A stretch of 58,949 nt of DNA from Blastocatellia bacterium (GTDB lineage: Bacteria > Acidobacteriota > Blastocatellia > Pyrinomonadales > Pyrinomonadaceae), in NCBI GenBank assembly GCA_013697915.1, contig JACCVY010000085.1, positions 1 through 58,949 of the forward strand. The letters are read 5' to 3'. The notes below the pieces were generated by a model. It did not search any database. It saw only the letters and a program-made list of their open reading frames with translations, and was not told the DNA's origin. Made by a program: the position numbers and the translations under genes. Of the stretch, positions 9,126 through 57,303 are shown one piece after another (the first letter of the stretch is position 1; each line of letters starts with the position of its first letter).

Positions 9126-9478
9126 CTCCGATAAACTTCAAGAAGCTCTGAACAAGTTGATGTGGACTTGCTTTTCCAAAACCCGCGTAGCGGGTGGAAG
9201 CATAAAGCCCTGGGGTGGAGCGGAGCGGAACCCCAGGATATCAAAGGATAAAAAACCGAGCGCGCGAAGCGTGCGATAGCGCCAAACCTGCGATTTACTC
9301 ATTGATGAATTGCTGTCGCCCACTTCGCGGGCTGGTCCTTCTGTTCTCCAGCGATCCTGGGGTTCCGCTTCGCTTCACCCCAGGTTTTATGCTATCGCCG
9401 CGCTTCGCGGGCTCGTGTAAACTCTTCACCAACTTGGTCACCAAACCTGTTCAGAGGTTCCTTCAGTTTGTCGAACCC
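9126..9478 (-). repeat. Large palindromic repeat element, copy in the tolC-adaptor gap
   Basis: This element of about 350 bp fills nearly all of the gap 9099-9483. It shares with 13410-13815, in the same order: TCCGATAA at the edge, an AAACCCGCGTAGCGGGTGG hairpin, the GGTGGAGCGGAGCGGAACC block, a CGATAGCG block, CGCCCACTTCGCGGGCT, the inverted block GGTTCCGCTTCGCTTCACC, TATCGCCGCGCTTCGCGGGC, and CTTCACCAA. The GGAGCG and CGCTTC blocks are inverted repeats of each other, so the element can fold on itself. No protein is encoded. Confidence 0.85.
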
Positions 9479-13409: not shown

Positions 13410-13815
13410 ATGTCCGATAAGCTTTAGCTTGTCGAACCCGGCGACAAACTAAAGGAACGTCTGAACAAGCCAATGCAGCTGGCGTTTTCAAACCCGCGTA
13501 GCGGGTGGGAGCATAGAGTCTAGCACCCCAGCCGAGATGCTCGGCTGGGGACCCCGCCCTGAGGTGGAGCGAAGCGGAACCCCAGGACGACGATAGTTAA
13601 AAACCTGGAGCGCGCGGTGCGCGCGATAGCGCAAGCGCTGCGATATGCCTGTCTTAAACCGCTGTCGCCCACTTCGCGGGCTCGTGCATTTTACTTGAAT
13701 GATCCTGGGGTTTCGCTTCGCTACACCCCAGGCTTTATGCTATCGCCGCGCTTCGCGGGCTCACTGCAAGACTTTCACCAATTTGTTCCGAAGACTCCTC
13801 AAGTGTATCGGACAT
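13410..13815 (-). repeat. Large palindromic repeat element, copy between response regulator and kinase genes
   Basis: This is the fullest copy of the element, filling most of the gap 13359-13864. It begins ATGTCCGATA (13410) and ends TATCGGACAT (13806-13815), so it has 10-bp terminal inverted repeats. Internally it carries the same ordered blocks as the copy at 9126, including the two inverted GGAGCGAAGCGGAACC / GGTTTCGCTTCGCTACACC arms. Relative to 9126 it has an extra short hairpin at about 13530-13562. An open frame of about 250 bases in it is not a gene. Confidence 0.85.
13530..13562. repeat. Small hairpin nested within the large repeat
   Basis: The stem CCCCAGCCGAG / CTCGGCTGGGG is a perfect 11-bp palindrome with an ATG loop, preceded by GCA and followed by AC. 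The corresponding place in the copy at 9126 lacks it. The same type of unit, GCACCCCAG...GGGGAC, is present at 20881-20912, where it also looks inserted. Confidence 0.7.
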
Positions 13816-20733: not shown

Positions 20734-20927
20734 GCGGGGGCAAGCCACCCTTCCTGACCTGAGAGGTTTTCAACGTTTCAAAATCTTTCTAGATTGAAAC
20801 TTTCTCAATTTCTAGTTTGAAAGGTTCTCAATCTAATTTATCGTACACGTCTGAGCAGCTTCAGTTGGGAAGGGTGGCTTTGGCACCCCAGCGCGGCTGA
20901 CGCGCCGGGGACGTGGCTTGCCCCCGC
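20734..20927. mobile_element. MITE-like element with GCGGGGGCAAGCCACCCTTC terminal inverted repeats (copy 1)
   Basis: The left end GCGGGGGCAAGCCACCCTTC is at 20734-20753. The right end is its reverse complement but is split by a small hairpin insertion at 20881-20912. The interior is AT-richer and includes repeated TTTCTAG/GAAACTTTC words. No protein is encoded. A second element with the same 20-bp ends and a different interior is at 57171-57303. It fills most of the gap 20688-20951 before aspS. Confidence 0.8.
20881..20912. repeat. Small hairpin inserted into the MITE right end, with 7-bp duplication
   Basis: GGTGGCTT is followed by a 32-base unit (TGGCACCCCAGCGCG... to ...CGCCGGGGAC) and then GTGGCTT again, so GTGGCTT flanks it on both sides. 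In copy 2 (57284-57303) the same end reads continuously GAAGGGTGGCTTGCCCCCGC, an empty site. The unit folds as CCCC-AGCGCG / CGCGCC-GGGG and resembles the nested hairpin at 13530. Confidence 0.8.
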
Positions 20928-31574: not shown

Positions 31575-31594
31575 GGATCACTCAAGCAAATTAC

Positions 31595-31637
31595 TGGGAC
31601 CGCGGGCGGGACGCCCGCACTGAGCGCGAAGCGCGAA
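31595..31637. repeat. REP sequence, left of RAYT
   Basis: TGGGACCGCGGGCGGGACG then CCCGCACTGAGCGCGAAGCG forms the REP core (GCGGGC/GCCCGC stem) plus a GCGCGAAGCGCGAA tail. It is inverted relative to the copy at 32358, and the two bracket the transposase gene. Confidence 0.88.
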
Positions 31638-31661: not shown

Positions 31662-32276
31662 TCACTTCTGTTTCTTGAACCAAGCACTCCCATATGGCCA
31701 ATCTTCCGGTCGCCGACACAATCCGGCCTTTACCGGATTGTTTTCTATGTATTTAACAGTCTTTTCAAAATGCTGTTCGTTGCGAATGTAGCGGTCGAAA
31801 TAATCTTCGATCCAAAACTGCCCAGAGCGATGCAGAATTTTGTTGGCCTCATGCGAAGTAAAAGATTTGAGCGAATGCAAAATATCGCTCAACTCGTATT
31901 GCTCAAAACGTGTCAGCAAGGAATGAACATGGTTGGGCATCACCACCCATGAGAAAAGACGATATCTGATGCAGTCGAACTTGAGCAGCGAATTCTGAAC
32001 CATCCTGGCCACGTTAGGAACTTTCAGAAAAGCGTTGCCATATCCCTGATCCAAATACTTTTCGATACGGCCCTGCAGGACTATTCTTTCCTGCTCGTAC
32101 TTCAGCGACTTTAACTCTTCCCGCCGACCCTGGATAACTTTTTTGGGGATTGAACCGCCAAGATGAAAGGTAATGAACTGAGGCATCGCGCGACCGTCGA
32201 AGTGCGGTAAGTAGCCGCGACTATGCCAACCGGTTTCTCGGAGTTCCTTTTGATGGGGATTATCAAACAGCGTCAT
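31662..32276 (-). CDS. REP-associated tyrosine transposase (RAYT, Y1_Tnp family)
   Basis: A 204-residue single-strand DNA transposase-like enzyme of the HUH superfamily. The two-His motif is MPNHVH (H116 and H118), preceded by a hydrophobic strand (RLFSWVV). The candidate nucleophile tyrosine is in WIEDYFDRYIRNEQHFEKTV, followed by the family hallmark YIENNPVKAGL. Inverted REPs lie 25 bases after its stop and about 80 bases before its start. Members are thought to have spread REP/REPIN elements in the host genome. The gene looks intact. Confidence 0.93.
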   Translation of the reverse strand: MTLFDNPHQKELRETGWHSRGYLPHFDGRAMPQFITFHLGGSIPKKVIQGRREELKSLKYEQERIVLQGRIEKYLDQGYGNAFLKVPNVARMVQNSLLKFDCIRYRLFSWVVMPNHVHSLLTRFEQYELSDILHSLKSFTSHEANKILHRSGQFWIEDYFDRYIRNEQHFEKTVKYIENNPVKAGLCRRPEDWPYGSAWFKKQK

Positions 32277-32357: not shown

Positions 32358-32403
32358 TTCGCGCTTCGCGCTCATTGCGGGCGGGACGCCCGCGGTCCCA
32401 GTA
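32358..32403. repeat. REP sequence, right of RAYT
   Basis: TTCGCGCTTCGCGCTCATTG, then CGGGCGGGACGCCCGCGGTC and CCA, is the reverse complement of the REP at 31595. The pair makes a REPIN-like arrangement around the RAYT gene. Confidence 0.88.
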
Positions 32404-32416
32404 TTCGCGTTTGAGT

Positions 32417-34822
32417 TTATTTACCTCGAATTGCGTTGAAGAAGAGGGGATAAGTGGCCAGCGATTGGCCGCGATATTGTGGGCGGAAGCCGAAAAGAAT
32501 GATGCGGCCCTTGCCCATTGTTACCTCAACCAGCGCGGCCTTTCCCTTAATTCGATCGCCGCCTAATAACCAACCAGAAAGCAAAGGATTTTTGTTAGTT
32601 GGATAGCGAGCGATAATGCGCACGCTTACTGGTGAGATCGTCGGCACCGTGTCTGCCGCTTCGCGCAGCGCGCTCACTGCGGGCGGGACGCCCGCGGTCC
32701 CAGGGAAAACTTCAAACACGGGCGAGTCTTCCACCCAGGCAATTGATTCTTTCGGCATATCTCCAGCAATGGGATCTAAAGTGTCCAATTCGATCTGCAA
32801 GATCGAGCCAGGCACGAAAAATTCTTTTTCCGACCAATCGCCCGCGACATCACGCAGCGGAAGTTTGAATTGCTCGATCGCAAATGCCGAGGCGCGATTG
32901 AAACACACCAACGTGCCACCCTGCTCGACAAACTCGCGCAATGCCGTCACTCCCGCTTGTCCAAGGCCGCCAGTGTATTCGCGAGGCATCGTGCCTAGTG
33001 TGTAGCCATTGAGAATTGTTTCCGGCTTCTGATCGGGGATCACGATTGAATTGTATTTGGCATTCAAGCTGCCCGCTCGAATCTCTGCGTCTTCAGGCGA
33101 CGAGTACTTGTAGTGTTGCTGGTCCAGAACCCAGCGGGTCCAACCTTCATCGATGGCCGCAACGTGGGATTTGTATAGACCGAGCTTTTCCTCGATCTCG
33201 CCAAACCCGGTGCAACTGTTCATTCCGCCTTCTGTCGGCAAGCGGTAACGAAAGGGCTGCCGAATCTCGAGTACATTCACTCCCATCAAGAGGGATAGCG
33301 TGTGCGCTGTAACGTCGTAAGGCGAGATTGGATGGCCGCTCGAGTCGCGCAAATCCGGGTAGTGTTGTCTTTCCAAAATCGCTTTCGCAAAGTTGCCGTA
33401 TGGTTGGTCTATGCGAATAACTGCGGTGCCTTCAGGGTAGCTACTCCCCGCCGCGGTGAACGGCAAGGGAAAGTCGACATCTACACCCGCACGGTCCAAT
33501 ACCTGGACGAGATCCGCCCGGTGTCGAGCTTTTGGAATGACGAAGGCATACGGTTCATGTCGTTTCCTTGGTCGCACCGCGTCTTTACCAGTCTCATAAA
33601 ATCGCTGCAGCCATTGTGAACGATTCTCCGAAGCATGTTTGAGCAGCAGAAACGCCGCCGTTGTCATGTAGTTTGTGATATCGCGCAAATGCCACTCGCC
33701 GCCGCGCCAGAGCGGACCAAAGGTCGCGGATTCCTTCTTCGAATCGTAGCCTTCGCCTTTGCGCAACTGCTCAAACTTGACTGAAACGGGCGTGGCAATT
33801 TTGCAGGATGCCGTTTCTGAAAGGATCCGGACGCCGCCGTGGTAATGCGAATAAGCACGCGACGGTGACCAGGCGTCATAGGTCGAATTGGTAGTAATCC
33901 CTTTGAAACCCGCTGCGCGCATCTCGCGCGCCATGTAGTTTCCGAGTTCTGTATATCCCGCCACTATTTGTTGCGGCACATTCGGCTCGACCGGCGGCAT
34001 GTAAGGCGGCAGAAACATTCGCGGGCCGTATTCGCCCTGTTGATGTATGTCGTGGACTATCTGCGGATGCCAGGCGTTGTGAATCTTTTCAACAGCGATC
34101 TGCGTCTCGACCTGGGTAAAGGCATACCAATCGCGGTTGTCATCATGGCCGGTATACTTGTGATAAAGCTCGGTCGGGTTTGTGCCTTCGTAGGGCGTGC
34201 CTAATGTTTTGTCATACCAGTTTTTAACAATATCCACACCGTCAGGATTTAGCGAGGGCACCAGCAAAATGATTGTGTTCTGCAGAATGTCATTTATCTC
34301 GGGCTCATTAGATGACGCCAGGCGGTGCGCAATGAGCATGCTCGAAAGATATGAACCCACCTCGGTCGAATGGATGCCGCAAGTCACAAGCACGATCGTC
34401 TTGCCGCGCGCAATCAGCTCAGCAGCTTTGCGATCGCGCGAGCCCGGTGAACCAAGCTGGCGCGGATCGGCCAGCAATTCCTGAATCTTCTTGTATTCAT
34501 CAAGCCGCGCCAGATTTTCAGGCGCACTAATCGTCGCCATCACAAATGGTTGGCCCATGGTTGACTTGCCCAGCTCTTCAAACTTCACTCGATCGCTGGT
34601 TTTAGAGAGCGCTTCAAAATATGTAGTTACCTGATTCCAACTCGCGAGTTTGCGATCGTCGCCGGGTACAAATCCGAGAATTTCTTCAGGGACGGGAATG
34701 TGCGCTAGAACTGGCGTTGGACTTCCAATGTTTACGACGGAATGCGCGCCGGCGCGTGAAAATGAATTGAGTTGGAAGAGAACCGCGGTGGTTAGGACGA
34801 GAAGAACTATTCTTTTTCGCAT
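32417..34822 (-). CDS. Secreted M14-family zinc carboxypeptidase with C-terminal extension
   Basis: An 801-residue secreted peptidase. After a signal segment (residues 4-24), the M14 domain has the zinc motif H151-S-T-E154, NRDWY (about 229-233), and the third zinc His and substrate-binding region in IVHDIHQQGEYGPRMF (257-272). The catalytic-Glu region is RILSETAS. The C-terminal half (about 430-801) is a family-specific extension ending in a glutamine-amidotransferase-like or beta-rich part (GKGRIILFGFRPQYRG). Residues about 706-722 (PGTAGVPPAVSALREAAD) come from a REP inserted in frame. The frame stays open, so the protein may still be active. Confidence 0.88.
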   Translation of the reverse strand: MRKRIVLLVLTTAVLFQLNSFSRAGAHSVVNIGSPTPVLAHIPVPEEILGFVPGDDRKLASWNQVTTYFEALSKTSDRVKFEELGKSTMGQPFVMATISAPENLARLDEYKKIQELLADPRQLGSPGSRDRKAAELIARGKTIVLVTCGIHSTEVGSYLSSMLIAHRLASSNEPEINDILQNTIILLVPSLNPDGVDIVKNWYDKTLGTPYEGTNPTELYHKYTGHDDNRDWYAFTQVETQIAVEKIHNAWHPQIVHDIHQQGEYGPRMFLPPYMPPVEPNVPQQIVAGYTELGNYMAREMRAAGFKGITTNSTYDAWSPSRAYSHYHGGVRILSETASCKIATPVSVKFEQLRKGEGYDSKKESATFGPLWRGGEWHLRDITNYMTTAAFLLLKHASENRSQWLQRFYETGKDAVRPRKRHEPYAFVIPKARHRADLVQVLDRAGVDVDFPLPFTAAGSSYPEGTAVIRIDQPYGNFAKAILERQHYPDLRDSSGHPISPYDVTAHTLSLLMGVNVLEIRQPFRYRLPTEGGMNSCTGFGEIEEKLGLYKSHVAAIDEGWTRWVLDQQHYKYSSPEDAEIRAGSLNAKYNSIVIPDQKPETILNGYTLGTMPREYTGGLGQAGVTALREFVEQGGTLVCFNRASAFAIEQFKLPLRDVAGDWSEKEFFVPGSILQIELDTLDPIAGDMPKESIAWVEDSPVFEVFPGTAGVPPAVSALREAADTVPTISPVSVRIIARYPTNKNPLLSGWLLGGDRIKGKAALVEVTMGKGRIILFGFRPQYRGQSLATYPLFFNAIRGK
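32655..32703. repeat. REP inside the M14 peptidase coding sequence
   Basis: CGCTTCGCGCAGCGCGCTCA, then CTGCGGGCGGGACGCCCGCG, then GTCCCAG matches the intergenic REP. Read on the minus strand in the gene's frame it gives GTAGVPPAVSA, so it is an in-frame insertion. Confidence 0.9.
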
Positions 34823-57170: not shown

Positions 57171-57303
57171 GCGGGGGCAAGCCACCCTTCCCAACTTGGA
57201 GCTGATCTGACTTGAACCTGATCCGTCAGATTGCGAAGCGGTCAAGATTAACTGCAAACAGAATGATCCAGAGGCTCAAGGTCGAAGGGTGGCTTGCCCC
57301 CGC
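57171..57303. mobile_element. MITE-like element with GCGGGGGCAAGCCACCCTTC ends (copy 2)
   Basis: Both 20-bp terminal repeats are perfect (57171-57190 and 57284-57303), the element is 133 bases long, and the interior differs entirely from copy 1. The right end is intact, an uninterrupted version of the end that is split at 20881. It lies upstream of the OYE-like gene. Confidence 0.85.

Follow-up and report, generated by a model that had tools for sequence, protein, structure and literature searches.

At the right end of a repeat in a Blastocatellia bacterium contig (JACCVY010000085.1, assembly GCA_013697915.1), a short palindrome, TGGCACCCCAGCGCGGCTGACGCGCCGGGGAC (20881-20912), stands between two copies of GTGGCTT (20874-20880 and 20913-20919). 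The window, the whole stretch of DNA that was analysed (58,949 nucleotides), also holds a related repeat end, at 57284-57303, that is not interrupted. The locus raises the questions of whether such a small hairpin moves as a discrete element, what it duplicates on insertion, and what moves it.

The hairpin of the window and its host repeat

A sequence-only reading had proposed that a hairpin unit of 32 bases was inserted here with a 7-bp target duplication. The flanking heptamers are present as it described, and 57284-57303 is, as it said, an empty site. Because a 32-nt block bracketed by 7-bp direct repeats seldom arises by chance (5 of 58,749 window positions), inferring a duplication was reasonable. 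The 7-bp duplication itself did not survive comparison with the sister copies. These copies (L019, L020, L021 and L143) read ..GGNGGCTT TGG-unit-CCCG CTTGCCCCC, and in them only CTT, or the triple TTT/TTG if the register is kept, is repeated. At this host-repeat site the four sister copies have CCCGC where the window has GTGGC. The window copy appears to have acquired its extra GTGG secondarily, so that the 7-bp repeat is peculiar to it. GTGGC as a general right end of the unit was ruled out, as other copies end in CCCGC or CCCGG. The features are as follows.

20734..20927, + strand: host repeat, 194 bp, REPIN/MITE-like, with inverted GCGGGGGCAAGCCACCC ends and the unit in its right end (inverted repeat and genome matches)
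20879..20917, + strand: whole 39-nt insertion, consisting of the left 3-nt copy TTT, GG, the core and GTGGC (compared with sister copies L019-L021 and L143 and with 28 empty ends)
20884..20912, + strand: hairpin core CACCCC..GGGGAC, with an 11-bp stem and a CTG loop (covariance-model match C184:20879-20918, E 7e-11)
20918..20920, + strand: host target triple TTG, directly after the insertion (TTT/TTG in 5/5 occupied copies)
57171..57303, + strand: host repeat of the same kind without the unit, its right end GAAGGGTGGCTTGCCCCCGC unbroken (sequence read)

The hairpin unit is GCACCCCAGCGCGGCTGACGCGCCGGGGAC (20883-20912), and its host repeat has 48 matches in its own genome. The host "MITE" (20734-20927 and 57171-57303) is REPIN-like, with two inverted hairpin-forming ends (GGAAGGGTGGCTTGCCCCCGC) and a variable middle. 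One REPIN-type host end is found in frame in a GlpD-like gene of G004 (L137).

A second hairpin unit, GCACCCCAGCCGAGATGCTCGGCTGGGGAC (13523-13552), lies in a different host repeat.

13519..13557, + strand: second unit, 39-nt insertion TCT-AG-CACCCC..GGGGAC-CCCGC (pattern and covariance-model match)
9200..9241, + strand: the second unit's host repeat in its empty state, GCATAAAGCCCTGGGGTGGAGCG..CCCCAGG (elsewhere an empty copy usually reads AAAGCCTGGGG)

Here too the pair of repeats that had been pointed out, one at 13410 with the hairpin (CACCCCAGCCGAGATGCTCGGCTGGGGAC) and its relative at 9126 without it, is a valid example. When the loci were read, 19 empty repeats had the form AAAG-CCT-GGGG, and most of the 19 occupied ones had the form AAAG-TCT-NG-unit-CCCGC-CCT-GGGG.

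Anatomy and copy number of the element

We collected 165 copies with their flanks, which represent about 70 distinct contexts (62 to 72 used). The element is 36 nt long, N[G/C]-CACCCC-stem-CTG-stem-GGGGAC-CCCG[C/G], and each insertion adds 39 nt, that is, the element and a 3-nt near-copy of the target. The hairpin has an 11-bp stem and a 3-nt loop, and the stem is conserved through compensatory changes. In nearly all copies, one strand of the foot reads GCA or CCA and the other CGGGGT. The base before CACCCC pairs with the last base of the element (p0:q4) in 58/62 gp4 and 15/19 gp6 contexts, as either G..C or C..G. Such complementary end bases suggest that the element is recognised in a folded form, in which they would close the structure outside an internal loop. 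A guide sequence that covaries with the target triple was sought and rejected, the only strong correlations being p0:q4 and p2:q7. We also rejected a stop-free design: 65% of the elements are stop-free in six frames vs 49% when shuffled, so that the scarcity of stops largely reflects base composition.

That the unit has other copies was confirmed by a search of its own 4.5-Mb genome with the pattern GCACCCCAG..GGGGAC, which found 17 copies and none with the reversed control. The pattern occurs twice in the window and in none of 100 shuffles. A covariance model built from 14 copies gave 40 to 52 matches in the same genome, i.e. at least 40 copies. In the genus it matched 131 times in G006, 44 in G001, 42 in G002, 48 in G010, 24 in G004, 11 in G009 and 6 in G012, and five further genomes of the genus and seven from other families gave no match; these counts come from 150 scored candidates, so that weak copies may be missed, and a few are one hairpin counted on both strands. 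Across Acidobacteriota the unit was present in 11 of 297 sampled genomes (E<=1e-6). Among the matches listed for a 25-base pattern in named genomes were Pyrinomonadaceae/gp4, Blastocatellia, gp6/Luteitalea and one Myxococcales MAG. In the latter (nzgw250) an exact unit lies at L254 76-108, where a binning error or a transfer is possible; a similar context is found in L201 and L271. Viral contigs gave no matches to the unit, Rfam gave none at the gathering score for three test loci, and no description of it was found in the literature searched.

Occupied and empty sites

The proposal that the small palindrome is a discrete mobile element that nests in other repeats was upheld by empty and occupied forms of host repeats and of orthologous genes. 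Beyond what had been claimed, we found units within units and in-frame insertions in genes whose orthologues are empty. In addition to the hosts described above, the palindrome CGCAAACTA-ACA-GTTTGCG is empty eight times and occupied three times, and further empty/occupied pairs are provided by two REPIN ends and by REPc. REPc (GCGGGCGGGACGCCCGCGGTCCCAG) is empty on both flanks of a Y1 transposase gene in the window and occupied in L004, L012, RecQ L342 and others. Units nested inside units occur in L173, L165, L103 and L089. Around the units, strong host-palindrome stems number 7, vs 1.5 by permutation. In a gp6-type Acidobacteria MAG, two tandem units with a period of exactly 39 nt lie at L221 4199-4270.

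Insertions within genes

Many units are in frame within long reading frames, and about 17-18 of 20 unit-bearing proteins that were scanned have Pfam domains (E<=1e-5). The genes include those for PEP carboxylase, RecQ, a GlpD-like DAO, a response regulator, a protein kinase, a UvrD-type protein, an FGE-sulfatase and an enoyl-CoA hydratase, among others. MoCoBD xanthine dehydrogenase and Lhr contain two units each, and two unit-bearing DUF885 orthologues were among the scanned proteins. In Pfam-supported genes, antisense units outnumber sense ones at about 14 to 4. Orthologues of PEP carboxylase and of xanthine dehydrogenase that have no insert are present in the genus. The peptides encoded by the unit in the PEP carboxylase and DUF885 cases are RGPQRGSPAGV and AGSPAGQPRWGA.

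The DUF885 site is empty in G009 (CAGGAC-GTCGC), G012 (CAGGAT-GCTGC) and G021, contains one unit in G010, and in G002 contains a second unit nested within the first. The G002 and G010 DUF885 DNAs are 93-97% identical. This series from empty to single to nested establishes which way the site changed, and indicates movement of the element after the G010 and G002 lineages split.

In RecQ, a bare REPc is in frame in G000, G004 and G021, and in G006 a unit in the REPc loop adds 39 nt. Since REPc is in frame in RecQ of several species, REPc enters genes as well. The bare copies (L344, L345 and L343, respectively) are all at one position and encode the peptide GTAGVSPAA. In a membrane protein found in both G000 and G001 (L004 and L178), units lie at different spots of one variable loop, suggesting that they may be independent insertions into a tolerant loop.

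The target triple

The repeat around the unit is 3 nt long, in a fixed register, and often imperfect (62 to 72 distinct contexts). Of 72 contexts, 10 agree at all three positions (2.6 expected) and 36 at two or more (20.4 expected); in each case none of 2000 permutations was as high. Most of the signal comes from the third position, which matches in 60% vs 34%. Among gp6 contexts (n = 19) the two triples agree weakly, possibly due to old copies. The triple that follows the element is often NCT.

In nine hosts whose empty sequence is known and whose triples differ on one side, the right copy is the host triple and the deviating copy is the one on the CACCCC side. The left/right triples are TCT/CCT in REP, TCT/GCT in the unit loop, ACT/GCT in L173, TTT/GCT in L165, ATT/CTT and TTT/TTG in the REPIN ends (REPIN-a and REPIN-w), TAC/GAC in REPc, TCA/ACG in REPc2 and TCA/ACA in the CGCAAACTA palindrome. 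For this one-sidedness a two-sided sign test, calculated by hand, yields about 0.004. The nine hosts were chosen for their known empty form, some of them are amplified families, and two REPc copies deviate on both sides, so that the count overstates both the number and the cleanness of the events. Neutral decay of a true duplication should affect both sides; the one-sided deviation therefore argues against it, pointing to an end that would be carried by the element, as in IS200/IS605-like systems, or to template switching, rather than to a plain staggered-cut duplication. A cut between C and T within the triple was considered and rejected. It misfits the known empty sites, in which the first base of the left triple is not that of the host.

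Perfect matches occur as well (ACA/ACA, GCA/GCA, GCT/GCT), the unrelated triples being TCT, TCC, GCA, ACA and GCT, and single copies of two of the nine one-sided hosts match perfectly (CTT/CTT and ACA/ACA). With matching triples such as ACA/ACA, GCA/GCA and GCT/GCT, a true target duplication fits better than an element-borne end. The unit could then be the smallest possible MITE, two back-to-back inverted ends that a DDE transposase mobilises in trans, leaving a 3-bp target site duplication to decay afterwards. Perfect 3-bp repeats above chance are what such a MITE would leave, the matches extend over unrelated triples, and at the outer DUF885 unit GGA/GGA has decayed to AGA in a sister genome. 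However, decay should affect both copies equally and the deviations are mostly on the CACCCC side. The ends are also asymmetric, with CA on one side and ACCCCG on the other, and among the loci read no transposon with such ends turned up. On balance we consider a decaying MITE unlikely, though it is the strongest competitor to movement as a single strand.

The other process to which the one-sided deviation points is replication template switching, in which a fork stalled at a palindrome loop pairs over 1-3 nt with sequence flanking a donor unit, copies that unit and then switches back, no dedicated enzyme being required. This would agree with the preference for palindrome loops, with the tandem 39-nt array in L221, and with a donor-like left flank, TCT(A/C)G, that travels with one stem type into different hosts (REP and the unit loop). 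Yet template switching predicts ragged ends and variable donor flanks, whereas the ends are very constant (39 nt, p0:q4) over tens of sites in two acidobacterial lineages, and we hold it to be improbable.

Candidate enzymes

The window contains one gene that could supply a single-strand activity.

31662..32276, - strand: RAYT-like Y1 (HUH) transposase ORF, 204 aa (PF01797, E 4e-9), candidate single-strand enzyme for the unit
31594..31618, - strand: REP copy CTGGGACCGCGGGCGGGACGCCCGC flanking the Y1 gene; it hosts units elsewhere (L004, L012, RecQ L342) (sequence read)
32377..32401, + strand: REP copy GCGGGCGGGACGCCCGCGGTCCCAG on the other flank of the Y1 gene, empty (sequence read)

The segment 31594-32401, with the Y1 gene between inverted REP copies (CTGGGACCGCGGGCGGGACGCCCGC), is REPtron-like with an untagged REP, and a further copy of the flanking REP begins near 32679. 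Y1 genes are common in the genus. A RAYT gene flanked by the unit was looked for and not found: 0 of 34 Y1 loci of the genus, from incomplete genomes, have the unit on both sides, and 4 of 34 contain one anywhere, a density close to background. All 34 loci were searched for units; the Y1 ORF itself was picked up by the motif scan in some of them. Where the flanks of Y1 genes were readable, they carry other palindromes (REPc in the window, GGACAGACAGGAATGTCTGTCC, and others) and not the unit. Y1 genes flanked by GGACAGACAGGAATGTCTGTCC repeats are found in L384 and L386, in tandem in the latter. Across genomes, the Y1 gene count does not follow the unit count.

Discussion

The comparisons presented here allow us to address how the unit moves. 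We read it as a non-autonomous, REP-like mobile hairpin that is putatively moved as a single strand by a Y1-like enzyme acting in trans, and give this reading a probability of about 0.5. The unit would fold as a single strand where replication, or the loop of another palindrome, exposes it. An HUH/Y1-type (RAYT-like) enzyme, provided in trans, would then cut and join the folded unit, the cuts falling at short CT/CA-like sites, of which one would be in the host and one carried by the element at its CACCCC-side end. The TnpA_REP enzymes cut between C and T, and one also between C and A, beside hairpins of this size (PMC8266576). Against movement by a Y1-like enzyme stand the absence of a unit-flanked transposase, the absence of a GTAG-like guide, and Y1 counts that do not track unit counts. 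As 39 nt is a multiple of three and most frames are free of stops, many intragenic copies would survive. No host benefit was found, and the unit is read as selfish DNA, small enough to be tolerated in genes.

A bolder version is more tentative. An untagged 36-nt hairpin family, present in separate Acidobacteriota lineages, might be moved by an unrecognised single-strand machinery that is aimed at palindrome loops and brings a copy of the target triple with it; through its length in multiples of three, the family might have come to supply housekeeping proteins regularly with 13-residue insertions.

Two further explanations carry little weight. RNA-mediated spread, in which a hairpin RNA is reverse-transcribed into its targets, would draw on the stable RNA that the hairpin and its closing pair could form and on the many copies in genes, but the three loci compared with Rfam had no match, insertion occurs on both gene strands, and we consider it very improbable. 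A functional hairpin under selection with many origins (a terminator, protein-binding site or RNA processing signal) would explain the conserved stem and loop with their compensatory changes and the copies that are intergenic, but it is hardly credible given the units in coding sequence on either strand, the self-nesting and the empty orthologues in close relatives, and is largely refuted by the DUF885 and xanthine dehydrogenase series.

Several known systems resemble the unit in part. The unit would resemble the cyanobacterial small dispersed repeats of Elhai et al. (2008), which reportedly are very small, mobile and nested in other repeats; the sequence and phylum differ. REPs with GTAG or CGTC tags have already been described in frame in genes and nested in palindromes (Di Nocera et al. 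2013, PMC3733652). Like these tagged REPs (PMC3733652), the unit is one of the 20-40 nt high-copy hairpins, some inside palindromes and some in frame, including in DNA-repair genes. Unlike them, it has no GTAG/CGTC, has a 3-nt target copy and complementary end bases, and is mostly single. The GTAG type differs in that the unit has no GT[AG]G at its 5' foot. The CGTC type (CGTC end, 8-9 bp stem, 4-5 nt loop, CCA tail) differs in that the unit has no CGTC, an 11-bp stem and a 3-nt loop. REPIN/RAYT systems (PMC3116915, PMC8266576) share the hairpin units, and RAYT genes are present here, one of them in the window; in contrast to those systems, it is other palindromes, not the unit, that stand beside the RAYT genes. 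Rickettsia palindromic elements (RPE) are about 150 bp long and lie in frame in unrelated protein genes (PMC10969869, PMC3733652). The unit behaves in the same way, here with empty orthologues; compared by description, it differs in being 36 nt vs about 150 bp, in a distant phylum, and heavily nested in other repeats. The GC42 clusters of yeast mitochondria are mobile, 42 nt long and flanked by AG or ACT direct repeats, their mechanism being unknown (PMC4478555). Also by description, these share with the unit a GC-rich mobile hairpin of about 40 nt with 2-3 nt direct repeats, but reside in a eukaryotic organelle.

For a mobile DNA unit of a bacterium it is one of the smallest seen. Its empty and occupied sites are clean, one gene records nested insertion in three steps, and enzymes have tolerated many in-frame copies. 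The unit makes testable how orphan palindromic repeats such as RPE, the CGTC REPs and the yeast GC clusters move, and how often small mobile inserts enlarge proteins.
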